Shown here piece by piece: positions 7,928 to 31,296 of a DNA stretch of 32,296 bases. Positions within the stretch are counted from its first letter, which is position 1. Every line of letters begins with the position of its first letter. The stretch lies in the NCBI GenBank assembly GCA_024278215.1, contig JAJRTR010000014.1, positions 1 through 32,296 on the forward strand. The letters are read 5' to 3'. The notes under the pieces are model-generated. The model made no database searches. It was not told the DNA's origin and saw nothing but the letters and a program-made list of their open reading frames with translations. Made by a program: the position numbers and the translations under genes. Origin of the DNA: a bacterium. GTDB taxonomy: Bacteria; UBP15; UBA6099; JAJRTR01.

Positions 7928-8093
7928 GAGCCAATTGCAAAAAGTGGGTATCCACATCACTCAAGTCAGAACTTTATGTTGTGTGCATGACGACGAAATA
8001 GTGACGAGATATTGTGGCTACCGTAATCAAACGGATACACCACTTTGCGCGATTATGCCCGACTTCGCGTCGAACATAATTTTGCAACTGGCT
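7928..8093 (-). repeat. Intergenic repeat, divergent copy A
   Basis: Left end GAGCCAATTGCAAAA and right end CGAACATAATTTTGCAACTGGC match the ends of the two full copies elsewhere in the window; the right-end match extends over about 22 bases. The interior (about 120 bases) does not resemble the interior of those copies and lacks the central hairpin. Its GAGCC end faces the rhomboid start. It could be a subfamily with another core or an old, decayed copy. Confidence 0.55.
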
Positions 8094-8198
8094 TTTTTCA
8101 TCGTTTTGATTAATATGAATATATATCTTAGCTTGTGCGTTTTCAAACATTTGCCTGATTACCATTGGTTGCTCCGTGGACACATACGCAACGCAGTA

Positions 8199-8217
8199 GA
8201 GCCGATTGCAAAATCCG
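8199..8217 (-). repeat. Loose end of the intergenic repeat
   Basis: GAGCCGATTGCAAAATCCG matches the GAGCC end of the full repeat copies at nearly every base, but no partner end is visible before galT. It is probably a remnant. Confidence 0.45.
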
Positions 8218-12588: not shown

Positions 12589-13680
12589 CAAGTCTTTCAA
12601 AGCACGAAGTTCTGCCTCATCGCTGCGTATGGACACTCGCGAGATAAACGCCGCGACAAGAAACAGGTGGTGCTTGCGCTGGTGTGCGACCGCTTCGGCT
12701 TCCCCTTCCACTCCGAGGTGCTTCCCGGAAACACTGCCGACAAAAGCACGGCGTCCGCCCTTATCAAAAAATCAAAAAATGAATACGGCCTCAACGACTG
12801 CATTGTCGTCGGCGACAGAGGCATGATAAGCAGCGGCAACTTCAAATCAATACAGGCGGCTGACATGGGCTACCTCATGGCGCTGACCCGCGCCCACATG
12901 GCCTCGGATCTAAAAGAACACGAAGACGACATCCTCGCCATGAAGCACGAGCAGACACTGCTCATAGACGAAGGCAAGGCGTACTACATCGTATATTTCA
13001 ATCAGGAAGAGAAAGACGAAAAAAGCGCAGGGCGCACCCGCCGCCTGAGCCGCATGTGTGAAGCCTTCCGCGCCATAGAAAAAATGATCGCATCCGGCAG
13101 AATCAAAACACCGCAGGAAATCGGCGAACAGGTCGGAAAAGCAAAACAAAAGCACAAATGCGGCAAGTACATCAAATGGACCTACGAAGAAAAAAGCAAA
13201 GAACTTTCATTCGAAATCAAGAAAGAAAAAGTGAAAGAGGACGAAAAATGGGACGGGCTGCTCGTACTAAAATCCAACAGAAAGAAAATGAAAACCCCCG
13301 AATCAGTGGACACCTACAAAGGCCTGCAGAACGTCGAACAAGCATTCAGATCGCTCAAGTCCATCCTGGACATCCGCCCGATCCACCACCACAAAGACCT
13401 CTACGTGCGCGGCCACATCTACATCTGCATCCTGGCATATCTCCTCGAAAAATACATCGGCTTCGTCCTCCATGAACACGGCATCAACACCCGTGTCGGC
13501 TCGATCCTCAAAACACTTTCAACCATCAACATCAGCGAAATCGTCTCGCCTGACGGCAGCGTTATAAAAAAAACCATCTCCAGCGTCTCGGACGAACAAA
13601 ACGAAATCCTCGCCCACTTCGGGATAACCCGCCGGCAGATGACAAAAGAAATCCTGGGGGGAAAAATGCCTGGCTACTGA
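12589..13680 (+). pseudogene. 5'-truncated IS1634-type (IS4 superfamily) transposase
   Basis: The open frame enters from the end of ligA without its own start and runs to TGA at 13678-13680; the first internal ATG is at 12667. From about 12601 it reads like the second half of an IS1634 transposase: AYGHSRDKRRDKKQVVLAL, then EVLPGNTADKST, VVGDRGMISSGN (second catalytic Asp) and VEQAFRSLKSILDIRPIHH (catalytic Glu). The N-terminal part, including the first DDE Asp that normally lies about a dozen residues before the GYSRD-like motif, is missing. About 360 of a usual 500-550 residues remain, so it cannot be active. I could not identify terminal inverted repeats or a target duplication. It is flanked by an RHS fragment. 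Confidence 0.85.
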
Positions 13681-13740
13681 TATTCATTTTTCCCACCACT
13701 ACTGGCTTTATACCCATTTCCCTCTTCGCTTCGCGTCCAT

Positions 13741-13953
13741 GTTACGTTGTACGAATTCGAGCGACAGGCAAACGGAACCGATACCCTCGCTGCCCGCCAC
13801 ACACACGGACCCGGCGTGGATGATCCGCTCTACACCCAGACCAGAGCGACGGATTATTACTACTACCACAAAGATGGGTTAGGGAGCGTGCGTGAAATTA
13901 CAAATGAAGTCGGAGAAGTCGTCCAGAGAAACGAGTATGATTCATCCGGCAAC
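13741..13953 (+). pseudogene. RHS-repeat protein fragment
   Basis: An open frame continues from the transposase stop. From about 13744 it reads LYEFERQANG, then HTHGPGVDDPLY, YYYHKDGLGSVREITNE and VGEVVQRNEYDSSGN, which is the conserved RHS core-associated segment (Y-x-Y-G-P-G-x-D-x-P, then H-x-D-x-L-G-S-V, ending Y-D-x-x-G-N). Both ends are cut: upstream by the transposase remnant and downstream by the end of the phosphohydrolase gene at 13954 on the other strand. About 70 residues of what is normally a protein of more than 1000 remain. No toxin or immunity gene is visible next to it. Confidence 0.75.
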
Positions 13954-15666
13954 TCATATATAGCCCAGATTTCGAAGATTTTCTTCAACACTCTTTCGCT
14001 CTTCTTCCGTATAGGTATAAGTTTCAGTGGCTGGTTGATCTTCATGATGGTAGTAAGAAAGTTCATTCTTTTCCAAAAAGCATTTATCAAAAATATTCAG
14101 CAGCACATTGCCGTCCAGGTCGTCGGGGACTGGAGCTCCAGCCAGGTGAATCAGGGTAGGTGCAATGTCTGTGATGTGCGCCCCTGATATAGTCTCGCGT
14201 GTCTTGAAAGAAGGGCCGCTTGCAATAAATATTCCATTCATTCTGTGCGTGGCACTTTCTCCGATGTCAGGCTCGCCGAAAAGCGATGTTTCCTGGTGTC
14301 TTGCAAACTGGCGTGTGATGTATTTCATTCCATCCATGGAAAACAGGATGTCGGGAGCTGCATCCATATATGGTCCATTGTAGACATTCTCTTTAAAACG
14401 GATGTCGTCAACAAGAGGCCGTGTGCCGTCCGGTGTTTTGAGTTCTTTTAATTTGCTTGCGATTTCATCGCGAAGGTTTTCATATTCGTAGCCCGGTTCC
14501 ACAATCCCTGAAGGGAACCGTTTCTTATCATTTATGAATATCCTACCTATATAGCCATGAGAGAAAGCTTTTGTCCTGGTCCAGTCTATGTACTCCTCTT
14601 GAAGTAATGAAGGAGAAACTACAGACCAGAAAAGTCTGTCCACAATTCTTTCGTTTGTAACACTACAGAGATTATCGAAACAATCGGCAATCAGCGCAGT
14701 CAGGTCGGGATCATTATCAAGGTGCAGCCATTTCATCATTTTACTGGATCCGAGCAATGTCTCAGCGAACTCGCCGGGACTACGGATTTTTTTCTTATTG
14801 AAACGAAGGTATCCCATGGCGCTCAACCATTGATTGATGTAGACATCTTTATATAGGGGGCCGAATCCATGATCTGAAACGATCACGATATCAGTTTCTT
14901 CTGGGAGGTCATTGACTATCATGCCGACGTGCGAGTCAAGTCTGCTCCAGAAGGTGGGCAGCAGTTTTCCGTACAACATGGAATTTATGGAAGTGTTTGC
15001 GGGGTGAGTGTGGTCCCAGTATTTCCATAGAAAATGCTGCACTCTGTCAGTGGAAGTAAATACTCCCATAAAAAAGTCGCAGGAGTTGTTGTTGATTAGC
15101 CATTGAAAAGCTTTTTTTCTGTTTCGAGTGACTTTCAGCGCGTCATAATAAAAACTGAAAACATTTTTTTGTACAAGCTTATGATTCCCTTCAACAGAAT
15201 AACTGGGGACTGCTTTTTTCAAACCGCCTATCAGGTTGGCCGGATAAGTCGCCGGTTCGACGTTGCCCGGTGTTCCCATGCCGGTGACCATAAAGCCGTC
15301 TACTTCATGGGGCGGATATGTAAGGGGTAGATTGAAAAGACCTGTGGAAATGCCGTGAGAGTTCAGGTGTTTCCAGAACATTCTATGAGCTATCGAACTG
15401 TAGTTCGCGGGGGCGAGCTTGTAGGTGTTTTCGATGTGCTGCCAGAAATCATAAATTCCGTGTCGCCCCGGGTTGAGTCCTGTGTACATCGATATCCATC
15501 CCGGCGGTGTCATGGGTTGCACAGTTGATTCAAGATTGCCGTGCACACCGTTTTTTATAAGACGGTTCAAGTGTGGCAGTACTCCTCTTTTTGCCAGGGG
15601 CATAATCACATCAAAAGTTGCTCCGTCAAGCCCGATTACAACGATTCGAGGAAATTTTTTATTCAT
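13954..15666 (-). CDS. AlkP-superfamily phosphohydrolase/phosphomutase (COG3379-like)
   Basis: A 570-residue enzyme of the alkaline phosphatase superfamily. It opens RIVVIGLDGATFDVI (first metal Asp14), has the nucleophile region PMTPPGWISMYTG with Thr53, then GRHGIYDF, STDRVQHFLWKYWD (Asp and His metal ligands), IVIVSDHGFGP (Asp-His) and a late His in ATHRMNGIFI. No signal peptide is seen. This type is repeatedly found beside glycosyltransferases and may act on nucleotide-sugar or lipid-linked phosphates; the substrate is unknown. ATG at 15666 overlaps the upstream gene by 8 bases; a GTG at 15675 is an alternative. It is the last gene of a coupled trio and ends directly at the RHS fragment. 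Confidence 0.88.
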   Translation of the reverse strand: MNKKFPRIVVIGLDGATFDVIMPLAKRGVLPHLNRLIKNGVHGNLESTVQPMTPPGWISMYTGLNPGRHGIYDFWQHIENTYKLAPANYSSIAHRMFWKHLNSHGISTGLFNLPLTYPPHEVDGFMVTGMGTPGNVEPATYPANLIGGLKKAVPSYSVEGNHKLVQKNVFSFYYDALKVTRNRKKAFQWLINNNSCDFFMGVFTSTDRVQHFLWKYWDHTHPANTSINSMLYGKLLPTFWSRLDSHVGMIVNDLPEETDIVIVSDHGFGPLYKDVYINQWLSAMGYLRFNKKKIRSPGEFAETLLGSSKMMKWLHLDNDPDLTALIADCFDNLCSVTNERIVDRLFWSVVSPSLLQEEYIDWTRTKAFSHGYIGRIFINDKKRFPSGIVEPGYEYENLRDEIASKLKELKTPDGTRPLVDDIRFKENVYNGPYMDAAPDILFSMDGMKYITRQFARHQETSLFGEPDIGESATHRMNGIFIASGPSFKTRETISGAHITDIAPTLIHLAGAPVPDDLDGNVLLNIFDKCFLEKNELSYYHHEDQPATETYTYTEEERKSVEENLRNLGYI

Positions 15667-17376: not shown

Positions 17377-17558
17377 TTGAGCCAATTGCAAAATTCTGAG
17401 CCTGCTGCGGTCGGCTGCAATTGTCCATAGCTGCGTTGTCGGCACAAAATCTTCCTCGACGTACTCTACAAGTACGCCTGCGAGGATTTTACACCTCCGC
17501 ATTGATCCGAACAATTTCGCTCGACCTCGCTACGAACATAATTTGGCAATTGGCTCAA
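17377..17558 (-). repeat. Intergenic structured repeat, full copy B
   Basis: About 182 bases bounded by TTGAGCCAATTGC and its inverse GCAATTGGCTCAA, a perfect 13-bp terminal inverted repeat. In the middle, 17446-17490 folds as a nested hairpin: AAAATC..CCTCG pairs with CGAGGATTTT, and inside it CGTACT pairs with AGTACG. The reverse complement of 31003-31178 matches it with about 13 differences. It stands between two genes of the same strand, with its GAGCC end 50 bases before the glycosyltransferase start. No transposase is inside, so it fits a non-autonomous palindromic element or a mobile structured RNA. Confidence 0.85.
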
Positions 17559-29937: not shown

Positions 29938-30024
29938 GATCCTGTGCGTTTTTTGCAGGACAACCGAATTTCCGGGATCATAGCCGGGATTTTTATTTGA
30001 ATCCGGAACAGTGTGGTGAACGGT

Positions 30025-31002
30025 ATGGAAAAAAGACCACCGATGGACAAACTATTCGACTCCGCCAGGAACAGGGCGAAGCTCAAGCAGTTGAAAGAAA
30101 AGCTCGCGCAGAAGGAGTTCGTGCAAGCGGAAAAGATATTGCAGCAATACCAGTTGGGAGAGCAGGTGAACAGTGATTCCGACAGCGAGATTGTGCCGGA
30201 AGCTGAAGAGGCGCGGCAGCAGCCACCGCCGGAAATGGTAGAACCCGAGGCGCCTACATATAAAGATATGGCTAGGGATGCCGCACTCAAACACCAGTAT
30301 GTGCAGCAGCGCCCAAAGATCAAGAAAACGGATGATCCGTGCCTGATCTTTTTCAGGGAACATTGCTCGCGTGATGTTTTCAGCCGTATTTTGGCGGATG
30401 AACCGCGCATGAGGCAGCTTATCAGGGGTGTTCGAGAGGAGATCGTCGTCCTCGACTGCGGTATCAGGAATTTCTCATCTACAGTTCGCGAGATTCCGCC
30501 TGACAGGGTCGTCTCGTTGTTGCAGGCCTATCTCGGCGACATCATCCCCGTCATCGTCACCGAATACGGCGGCTGCATCGGCGAGGTGACGGGCGCGGGA
30601 GTGACGGCATATTTCGGATTGCCGTATAAAGATGAATGGTTCGCTGCTTCGGCTGCCGGAGCCGCGACGGCGATAATGCGGCGTCTCGCGACAATCAACG
30701 AACAACTCGCGCGGCAGGGATTGCCTGCGATCGGTCTTTCGCTCGGACTCGCGCTCGGCCCGGTCTGCGCCGGGTTCCCTGTGACGGAGCATCTGGAGGG
30801 AAAATTTATGGTTTCCGGCGACGCGGTATTCATGGCGCGCGAACTTCAGCGTGTCGCCGCGTTCGACGAAATACTCGCCGGGCCGAGGATCGCAACACAG
30901 ATAAAAAATAAGTGTCAGTTCGAACCTGTGGGCATCACCATTGAATTTATCGACCGGACGGGGATACTGAAAAATTACTCTGCGAACAGGATAGTATGGT
31001 AA
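30025..31002 (+). CDS. Class III nucleotide cyclase homology domain protein, likely inactive
   Basis: From ATG at 30025 it has 325 residues; in-frame GTGs at 30013/30016 and an ATG at 30043 are alternatives, and no start has a strong ribosome binding site. Residues 1-45 form a charged helix, 50-95 are a Pro/Glu-rich linker, and 110-325 are a cyclase homology domain: FSRILADEPRMRQLIRG, EEIVVLDCGIRNFSS, LLQAYLGDIIPVIVTEYGG, EVTGAGVTAYFGLP, GLSLGLALGPVCAGF and KFMVSGDAVFMARELQ. The two metal-binding Asp positions are Gly146 (CGIRNF for xDIxGF) and Ala191 (TGAG for xGDx). The catalytic Asn-Arg pair of V-N-x-A-x-R reads V-F-x-A-R-E. It therefore probably binds a partner or nucleotide without making cyclic AMP. 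Its TAA stop directly abuts repeat copy C. Confidence 0.82.
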   Translation: MEKRPPMDKLFDSARNRAKLKQLKEKLAQKEFVQAEKILQQYQLGEQVNSDSDSEIVPEAEEARQQPPPEMVEPEAPTYKDMARDAALKHQYVQQRPKIKKTDDPCLIFFREHCSRDVFSRILADEPRMRQLIRGVREEIVVLDCGIRNFSSTVREIPPDRVVSLLQAYLGDIIPVIVTEYGGCIGEVTGAGVTAYFGLPYKDEWFAASAAGAATAIMRRLATINEQLARQGLPAIGLSLGLALGPVCAGFPVTEHLEGKFMVSGDAVFMARELQRVAAFDEILAGPRIATQIKNKCQFEPVGITIEFIDRTGILKNYSANRIVW

Positions 31003-31178
31003 GTCAATTGCAAAATTATGTTCGTAGCGAGGTCGATCGAAATTGTTCGGAGCAAGGCGGAGGTGTAAAATCCTCGCAGGCGTACTTGTAGAGTACGTCG
31101 AGGACGATTTTGTGCCGACAACGCAGCTATGGACAATAGCAGCCGACCGCAGCAGAATCGGAATTTTGCAATAGGCTC
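31003..31178 (+). repeat. Intergenic structured repeat, full copy C
   Basis: This is copy B in reverse orientation, with about 13 differences over 176 bases. The end near the cyclase-like gene is degraded (GTCAATTGCAAAATTATG), the other end reads GGAATTTTGCAATAGGCTC. The central hairpin (31067-31111) is kept, with the CGTACT/AGTACG stem intact. It begins at the base after the TAA stop of the preceding gene. Its GGCTC end faces the next gene downstream, the same relative orientation as copies A and B. Confidence 0.85.
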
Positions 31179-31296
31179 TGGTAAGTGATGGTGTATCGCC
31201 GGAGCAGCAGGCAGCCGGCAAAAACATACCGGTTGAATACAATTTAGTTGTTTATACTGGCACAAGTTGCATTTTTCAAATATTATATTGTGATAT

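Follow-up and report, generated by a model that had tools for sequence, protein, structure and literature searches.

The 32,296-nt bacterial contig JAJRTR010000014.1 (assembly GCA_024278215.1, lineage UBP15; the whole contig is referred to here as the window, and the assembly as the host genome) contains two near-identical repeats, copies B and C, which are members of a family of non-autonomous DNA transposons of the miniature inverted-repeat transposable element (MITE) type. Taken together, our analyses indicate that this MITE is probably moved in trans, and that its interior is a strand-specific hairpin module common to MITEs of about nine phyla, whose ends come from different transposon families.

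A core sequence of the family, GCGTACTTGTAGAGTACGTCGAGGA, occurred 234 times in the 4.55-Mb host genome when up to three mismatches were allowed (control, 0), and many contigs terminated within a copy of the element. Intact copies were nearly all exactly 178 bp in length, and 24 full-length copies differed pairwise at a mean of ∼7 of 178 bases, suggesting that amplification was fairly recent. Direct duplications flanked 29 of 41 unique two-ended copies (27 of 4 bp and 2 of 5 bp), as compared with 3.6% after flank shuffling, and the reconstructed targets displayed a symmetric preference for C before and G after the four duplicated bases (C-NNNN-G). The elements are short and multicopy, carry 17-bp inverted repeats at both ends, duplicate their targets and contain no transposase gene, all of which define them as MITEs; the combination of the GAGCCAATTGCAAAATT inverted repeats with 4-bp target duplications points to mobilization by a transposase. 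A putative DDE-type enzyme that makes 4-bp duplications would act in trans to cut and join the 17-bp ends. The original prediction, made from the letters of the window alone, had proposed either a non-autonomous palindromic mobile element or a mobile structured RNA. The former is borne out by the target duplications, the uniform ends of the 178-bp copies and the copy number, and the possibility that the genome would hold no further copies, which was to count against the idea, was removed by the 234 cores.

Copies B (positions 17379–17556, minus strand) and C (31001–31178, plus strand), which lie 13 kb apart, were complementary at 94% over 177 nt, and their near-identity as first noticed is real. 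The bounds initially assigned to them (17377–17558 and 31003–31178) were corrected, giving 178 bp for each full-length element. Copy B is described on its minus strand, the best-folding strand, with motif order TTCGTAGCGAGG ... GCAGCAGA. Its GAGCCAATTGCAAAATT repeat occupies 17379–17395 on the plus strand with no mismatches, and the opposite repeat occupies 17540–17556 on the minus strand with one mismatch. A perfect 13-bp terminal repeat reported earlier for this copy (TTGAGCCAATTGC/GCAATTGGCTCAA) does exist, although the outermost two bases belong to the flanks and the true repeats are 17 bp long. The conserved structured interiors of copies B (17397–17537, minus strand) and C (31020–31160, plus strand) scored 161.9 and 166.9 bits, respectively, with a covariance model of the interior (R1) whose training set includes both copies. 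Copy C is bordered by the target-site duplication TGGT on the left (30997–31000) and right (31179–31182), and was inserted at the TAA stop codon of an upstream open reading frame (ORF; 30013–31002), which still reads TAA. Copy B has no flanking direct duplication.

Other sequences were observed alongside the family. In the host genome, miniature derivatives of 46 bp (L038:1473–1518) and 106 bp (L051:1501–1606) keep both end repeats and little or no interior. A second repeat, containing TGTTGACACGACAC, was present at host-genome loci L004, L010, L023, L030, L041, L044, L055, L058 and L059, and sometimes directly adjoined an element copy. At L057:1520–1680 a further hairpin-forming sequence, ATTCCGGCGCAAAAAGTCC ... 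GGACTTTTTGCGCCGG, adjoins an end repeat and possibly represents a different repeat family; its start resembles a sequence at L238:1780–1800.

Distribution of the interior and its ends

The interior spans ∼140 nt and has the consensus TTCGTCGCGAGG–GCAAGG–AGGCGTA..TACGTCGAGG–ACGCnGC–CCGCAGCAGAA. A BLAST search of the same order returned a match in one genome only (G005), where the relative is 179 bp in length, ∼71% identical in its interior and bounded by a wholly different self-matching end, GAGGCTCTAACAAAA; between it and the host family, both sides had changed at 16 of 67 consensus pairs. R1 found matches in 21 of 290 genomes, of which 18 lie beyond the order; the low scorers are doubtful. 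Matches below ∼40 bits in several genomes (e.g. L077, L079, L082–L086) resembled unrelated hairpins on visual inspection and were excluded from the family, and one of them (L085:1501–1626, genome G124) is a palindrome with long near-perfect ends, GGGTCCGGAARGAAACAAACGTGTC, and a different interior, possibly belonging to another MITE family. With a second covariance model, R2, 35 of the 386 sampled genomes had a match at E<=1e-5.

A strict two-box pattern, TCGTCGCGAGG-N(95–125)-CCGCAGCAGA, searched over GTDB genomes, yielded at least 112 stretches compared to ∼4 expected by our own estimate, and the named genomes belonged to about nine phyla. Records were obtained from Planctomycetota, Gammaproteobacteria, Acidobacteriota, Nitrospira, Thermodesulfobacteriota, other Deltaproteobacteria, Verrucomicrobia, Myxococcales, Methylomirabilota and Eisenbacteria; a match at L147 was attributed to chance. 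Only two boxes are specified by the pattern, so the recurrence within these loci of boxes that lie outside it (GCAAGG, AGGCGTA..TACGTCGAGG and ACGCnGC) serves as an independent check, and R1, which was built without the pattern loci, matched most of those tried. The copies that the original prediction had suggested seeking in related genomes were thus found, both in G005 and, by R1, R2 and the pattern, beyond the order. In an Acidobacteriota genome (L148:5017–5338) two members were arranged in tandem as neighbouring copies with one common end repeat.

Whole elements gave no blastn match in plasmid and phage collections, and neither the window nor any of 15 loci with relatives scored above the gathering threshold of an Rfam family. 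No description of the family turned up when open papers were searched by sequence string and keyword; subscription journals and ISfinder lay outside these searches, and an earlier description is possible.

The ends of the relatives were of several kinds. Two of these kinds recur in annotated plasmid elements, with CTAGCAGCCTGTCGGACTT on either side of transposase genes of the IS1182 family (L208, L212) and CTAGCCCGCATTTCTCACC on either side of those of the IS1380 family (L209, L210); these elements share only the terminal 18–19 bp with the relatives' MITEs, and their subterminal DNA is without the interior boxes. Genome G277 has an intact IS1380 transposase gene (476-codon frame), after which comes the end TAGCCCGCATTTCTCACCA, identical to that of the MITEs in the same genome; the DNA past this end is unrelated. 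Target duplications of the relatives, where visible, were CTAG or TTAA. Autonomous partners with the same ends are present for the relatives (IS1380 and IS1182), whereas the host genome retains only decayed fragments. Judging from these sequences, one interior appears to be carried by at least two transposase families, in addition to the ends of the host genome, G005 and others.

Conservation of one folded strand

End-to-end folding of a 192-nt stretch of the window exceeded that of shuffled sequences, with z values of −6.2 for the minus strand and −3.7 for the plus strand. In a 48-sequence alignment, both-side changes were seen at all 46 pairs, and covariation was 0.642 as opposed to 0.184 when shuffled; a 99-sequence alignment contained 1404 both-side-changed cells (518 shuffled), with covariation of 0.655 (0.187 shuffled and at most 0.104 in slid controls), although the figures from both alignments are inflated by the fitting of the sequences to the model structure. 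Paired cells made up 82.7% of the larger alignment, compared to 31–44% in slid controls. Variation that ignored the stems had been named beforehand as contrary evidence for a covariance model to reveal, and the excess of both-side changes speaks against it.

In a wobble test that is independent of the model fit, each element was aligned with its reverse complement under equal scores for every transition, and a mismatch was counted only where Watson-Crick pairs lay on both sides of it. Base composition predicts equal numbers of G·U and A·C, yet inside the helices of the motif-bearing strand there were 236 G·U to 71 A·C for all sequences, 55 to 18 for 22 representatives below 75% identity (p=1.7e-5) and 58 to 8 for the host genome elements alone. 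The end regions of the representative set showed 21 G·U and 5 A·C. One G·U pair was conserved in 57 of 93 sequences. The unpaired or bulged boxes were retained from phylum to phylum, and the central hairpin of the interior was conserved as well. Since neither a purely double-stranded palindrome nor symmetry maintained by template switching is expected to produce an asymmetry between G·U and A·C, the excess on one strand indicates that a single folded strand, and not merely a DNA palindrome, is under selection or recognition.

The element shows the compensatory changes and one-strand wobble tolerance expected of a structured RNA in general, and single-stranded DNA is also compatible with them. 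On this evidence one strand of the element appears to be folded and recognised, either as RNA or as single-stranded DNA. The mobile structured RNA envisaged originally has gained support, from covariation and the G·U excess, as regards a conserved structure of a single strand that may be RNA or DNA.

Alternative readings and known systems

We propose that the motif-bearing strand, when single-stranded during replication or as a transcript, would fold end to end, pairing the two terminal repeats and displaying the conserved internal loops. Either a host factor or the transposition complex may engage these loops, an interaction that would favour mobilization or survival of the element, and the module may have passed between transposases by exchange or divergence of its ends. 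The trans-acting transposase, the display of the loops and the change of ends over time are all things that we infer. A broader proposal is offered more tentatively, as plausible but somewhat short of probable: the interior may be an ancient, bacteria-wide module, a ∼140-nt single-strand-specific hairpin with conserved loops that is tied to no one transposase and has repeatedly gained unrelated insertion sequence (IS) ends, its own function as RNA or folded single-stranded DNA having kept the motifs across phyla. MITEs are usually regarded as decayed insertion sequences with filler between their ends. If our proposal is true, the interior of some MITEs would be a functional module in its own right, the covariance model would allow such elements to be annotated in bacterial genomes, and the system would provide a direct test of whether one-strand folding matters in transposition.

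Several observations weigh against the first of these proposals. No intact transposase bearing the ends of the host genome's element was found, and a single end of the G277 IS1380 element was located within the fetched stretch. The orientation of elements relative to neighbouring genes, counted in the host genome given that ORF calling in high-GC loci was too crude, was 10:9, i.e. without bias, and lends no support to a cis-acting transcript. Lastly, the step from structure to function is one that we infer.

With respect to a partner in the host genome, three DDE_Tnp_1 genes (one of them in the window) were considered and rejected, as none lies between ends of the element, although a copy is located near one of them. 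Decayed transposase remnants consisted of two DDE_Tnp_1_6 (IS1182-type) tails and one IS1380-type tail. Derivation of the host element from IS1182 or IS1380 was dismissed, because its ends, GAGCCAATTGC..., match neither and its duplications are varied rather than CTAG or TTAA. Also discarded were a 1.4-kb end pair at C14:10139 as an autonomous element, its enclosed ORFs not being transposase-like by eye, and a 17-bp match to the end repeat in Acinetobacter, which was at chance level with no transposase close by. Element copies were observed ∼10 bp from an IS1182-type tail (L237:1447–1704) and ∼145 bp from the IS1380-type tail (L243:1179–1653), and copies beside such decayed tails are commoner than the element density suggests.

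A possible though less than even alternative is that the interior encodes a small structured RNA, expressed from some copies and of use to the host or to the element itself, for example in binding a protein, in RNase III processing or as a trans-acting regulator; IS transposases would do no more than spread it. The one-strand G·U excess, the conserved G·U pair, the purine-rich conserved loops and the covariation are all in keeping with such an RNA, whereas the lack of orientation bias and of an Rfam match, along with the 21:5 ratio at the ends, as expected were the entire DNA element to fold, are not. The orientation and end-region results slightly favour DNA folding over read-through RNA. Hairpin formation is common among MITEs, and template switching can generate complementary changes without selection; an ordinary MITE whose interior is a leftover palindrome kept symmetric in this manner (quasi-palindrome correction), with its structure unselected, could therefore be imagined, and the existence of interior-poor derivatives (the 46-bp L038 and 106-bp L051 forms and a 63-bp end pair at L160) agrees with it. 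This explanation is disfavoured and seems unlikely, since template switching is strand-neutral and removes mismatches, whereas here G·U exceeds A·C three-fold on one strand and the same unpaired or bulged boxes recur across phyla.

The conserved boxes adjoin the ends in both arms, as they would if the interior were the fused left and right subterminal regions of one ancestral insertion sequence kept for transposase binding. Such an origin is improbable given that the boxes are absent from the subterminal DNA of the IS1380 and IS1182 elements that share these ends, and that the central hairpin, which a fusion of this kind is unlikely to have kept, is also conserved. Even more improbable, to the point of being very nearly dismissed, is a repetitive extragenic palindrome (REP) or REPIN-type element moved by a REP-associated tyrosine transposase (RAYT) or another single-strand HUH enzyme. 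A strand-specific hairpin would suit it, and the element resembles REP, REPIN and CGTC/GTAG palindromes (PMC3733652) in being an intergenic palindrome found in several phyla; however, it measures 178 bp as opposed to 20–40 bp, its 4-bp target duplications and long end repeats contradict such a mechanism, it has no RAYT dependence, and it is without the GTAG or CGTC tag with 8–9 bp stem of REP families (PMC3733652).

We therefore return to the proposed reading of a MITE moved in trans with a shared hairpin interior. By every feature tested, a proven partner excepted, the element is a MITE, and it is neither a REP-type repeat nor a known Rfam family. Like the prokaryotic MITEs in the sections of a review considered here (PMC10969869; e.g. 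Chunjie, Correia/NEMIS and ERIC), it is short and non-coding, with end repeats, target duplications, many copies and a predicted stable hairpin transcript; unlike them, it has an interior conserved in boxes and structure across phyla and ends that match different IS families, and those sections mention neither IS1380, IS1182 nor phylum-wide interiors. The relatives have the ends CTAGCCCGCATTTCTCACC and CTAGCAGCCTGTCGGACTT in common with IS1380 and IS1182 insertion sequences, respectively, although the element has no transposase gene and the host ends match neither family. IStrons (a group I intron plus an insertion sequence; PMC4227781) likewise join one structured module to different IS families separately, and by this analogy appear to be the nearest precedent for such an arrangement. 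Each contains a ribozyme as well as a transposase gene, and they are confined to two phyla, whereas our element has neither intron core nor gene (PMC4227781).

Other features of the window

The DDE_Tnp_1 transposase gene of the window (12590–13990) lacks a start and lies directly after ligA, with an RHS-like fragment downstream; the element's end repeats are absent from its flanks. In total, the window holds seven 17-bp ends of the GAGCCAATTGCAAAATT type, as compared with 0.16 expected, three of which lie outside copies B and C. These three mark a decayed or divergent copy A (7928–8094, minus strand), in which both end repeats and one arm are recognisable and the interior is mostly lost, its alignment barely exceeding shuffled controls, and a solitary end repeat, GAGCCGATTGCAAAATC, at 8199–8215 on the plus strand with two mismatches.
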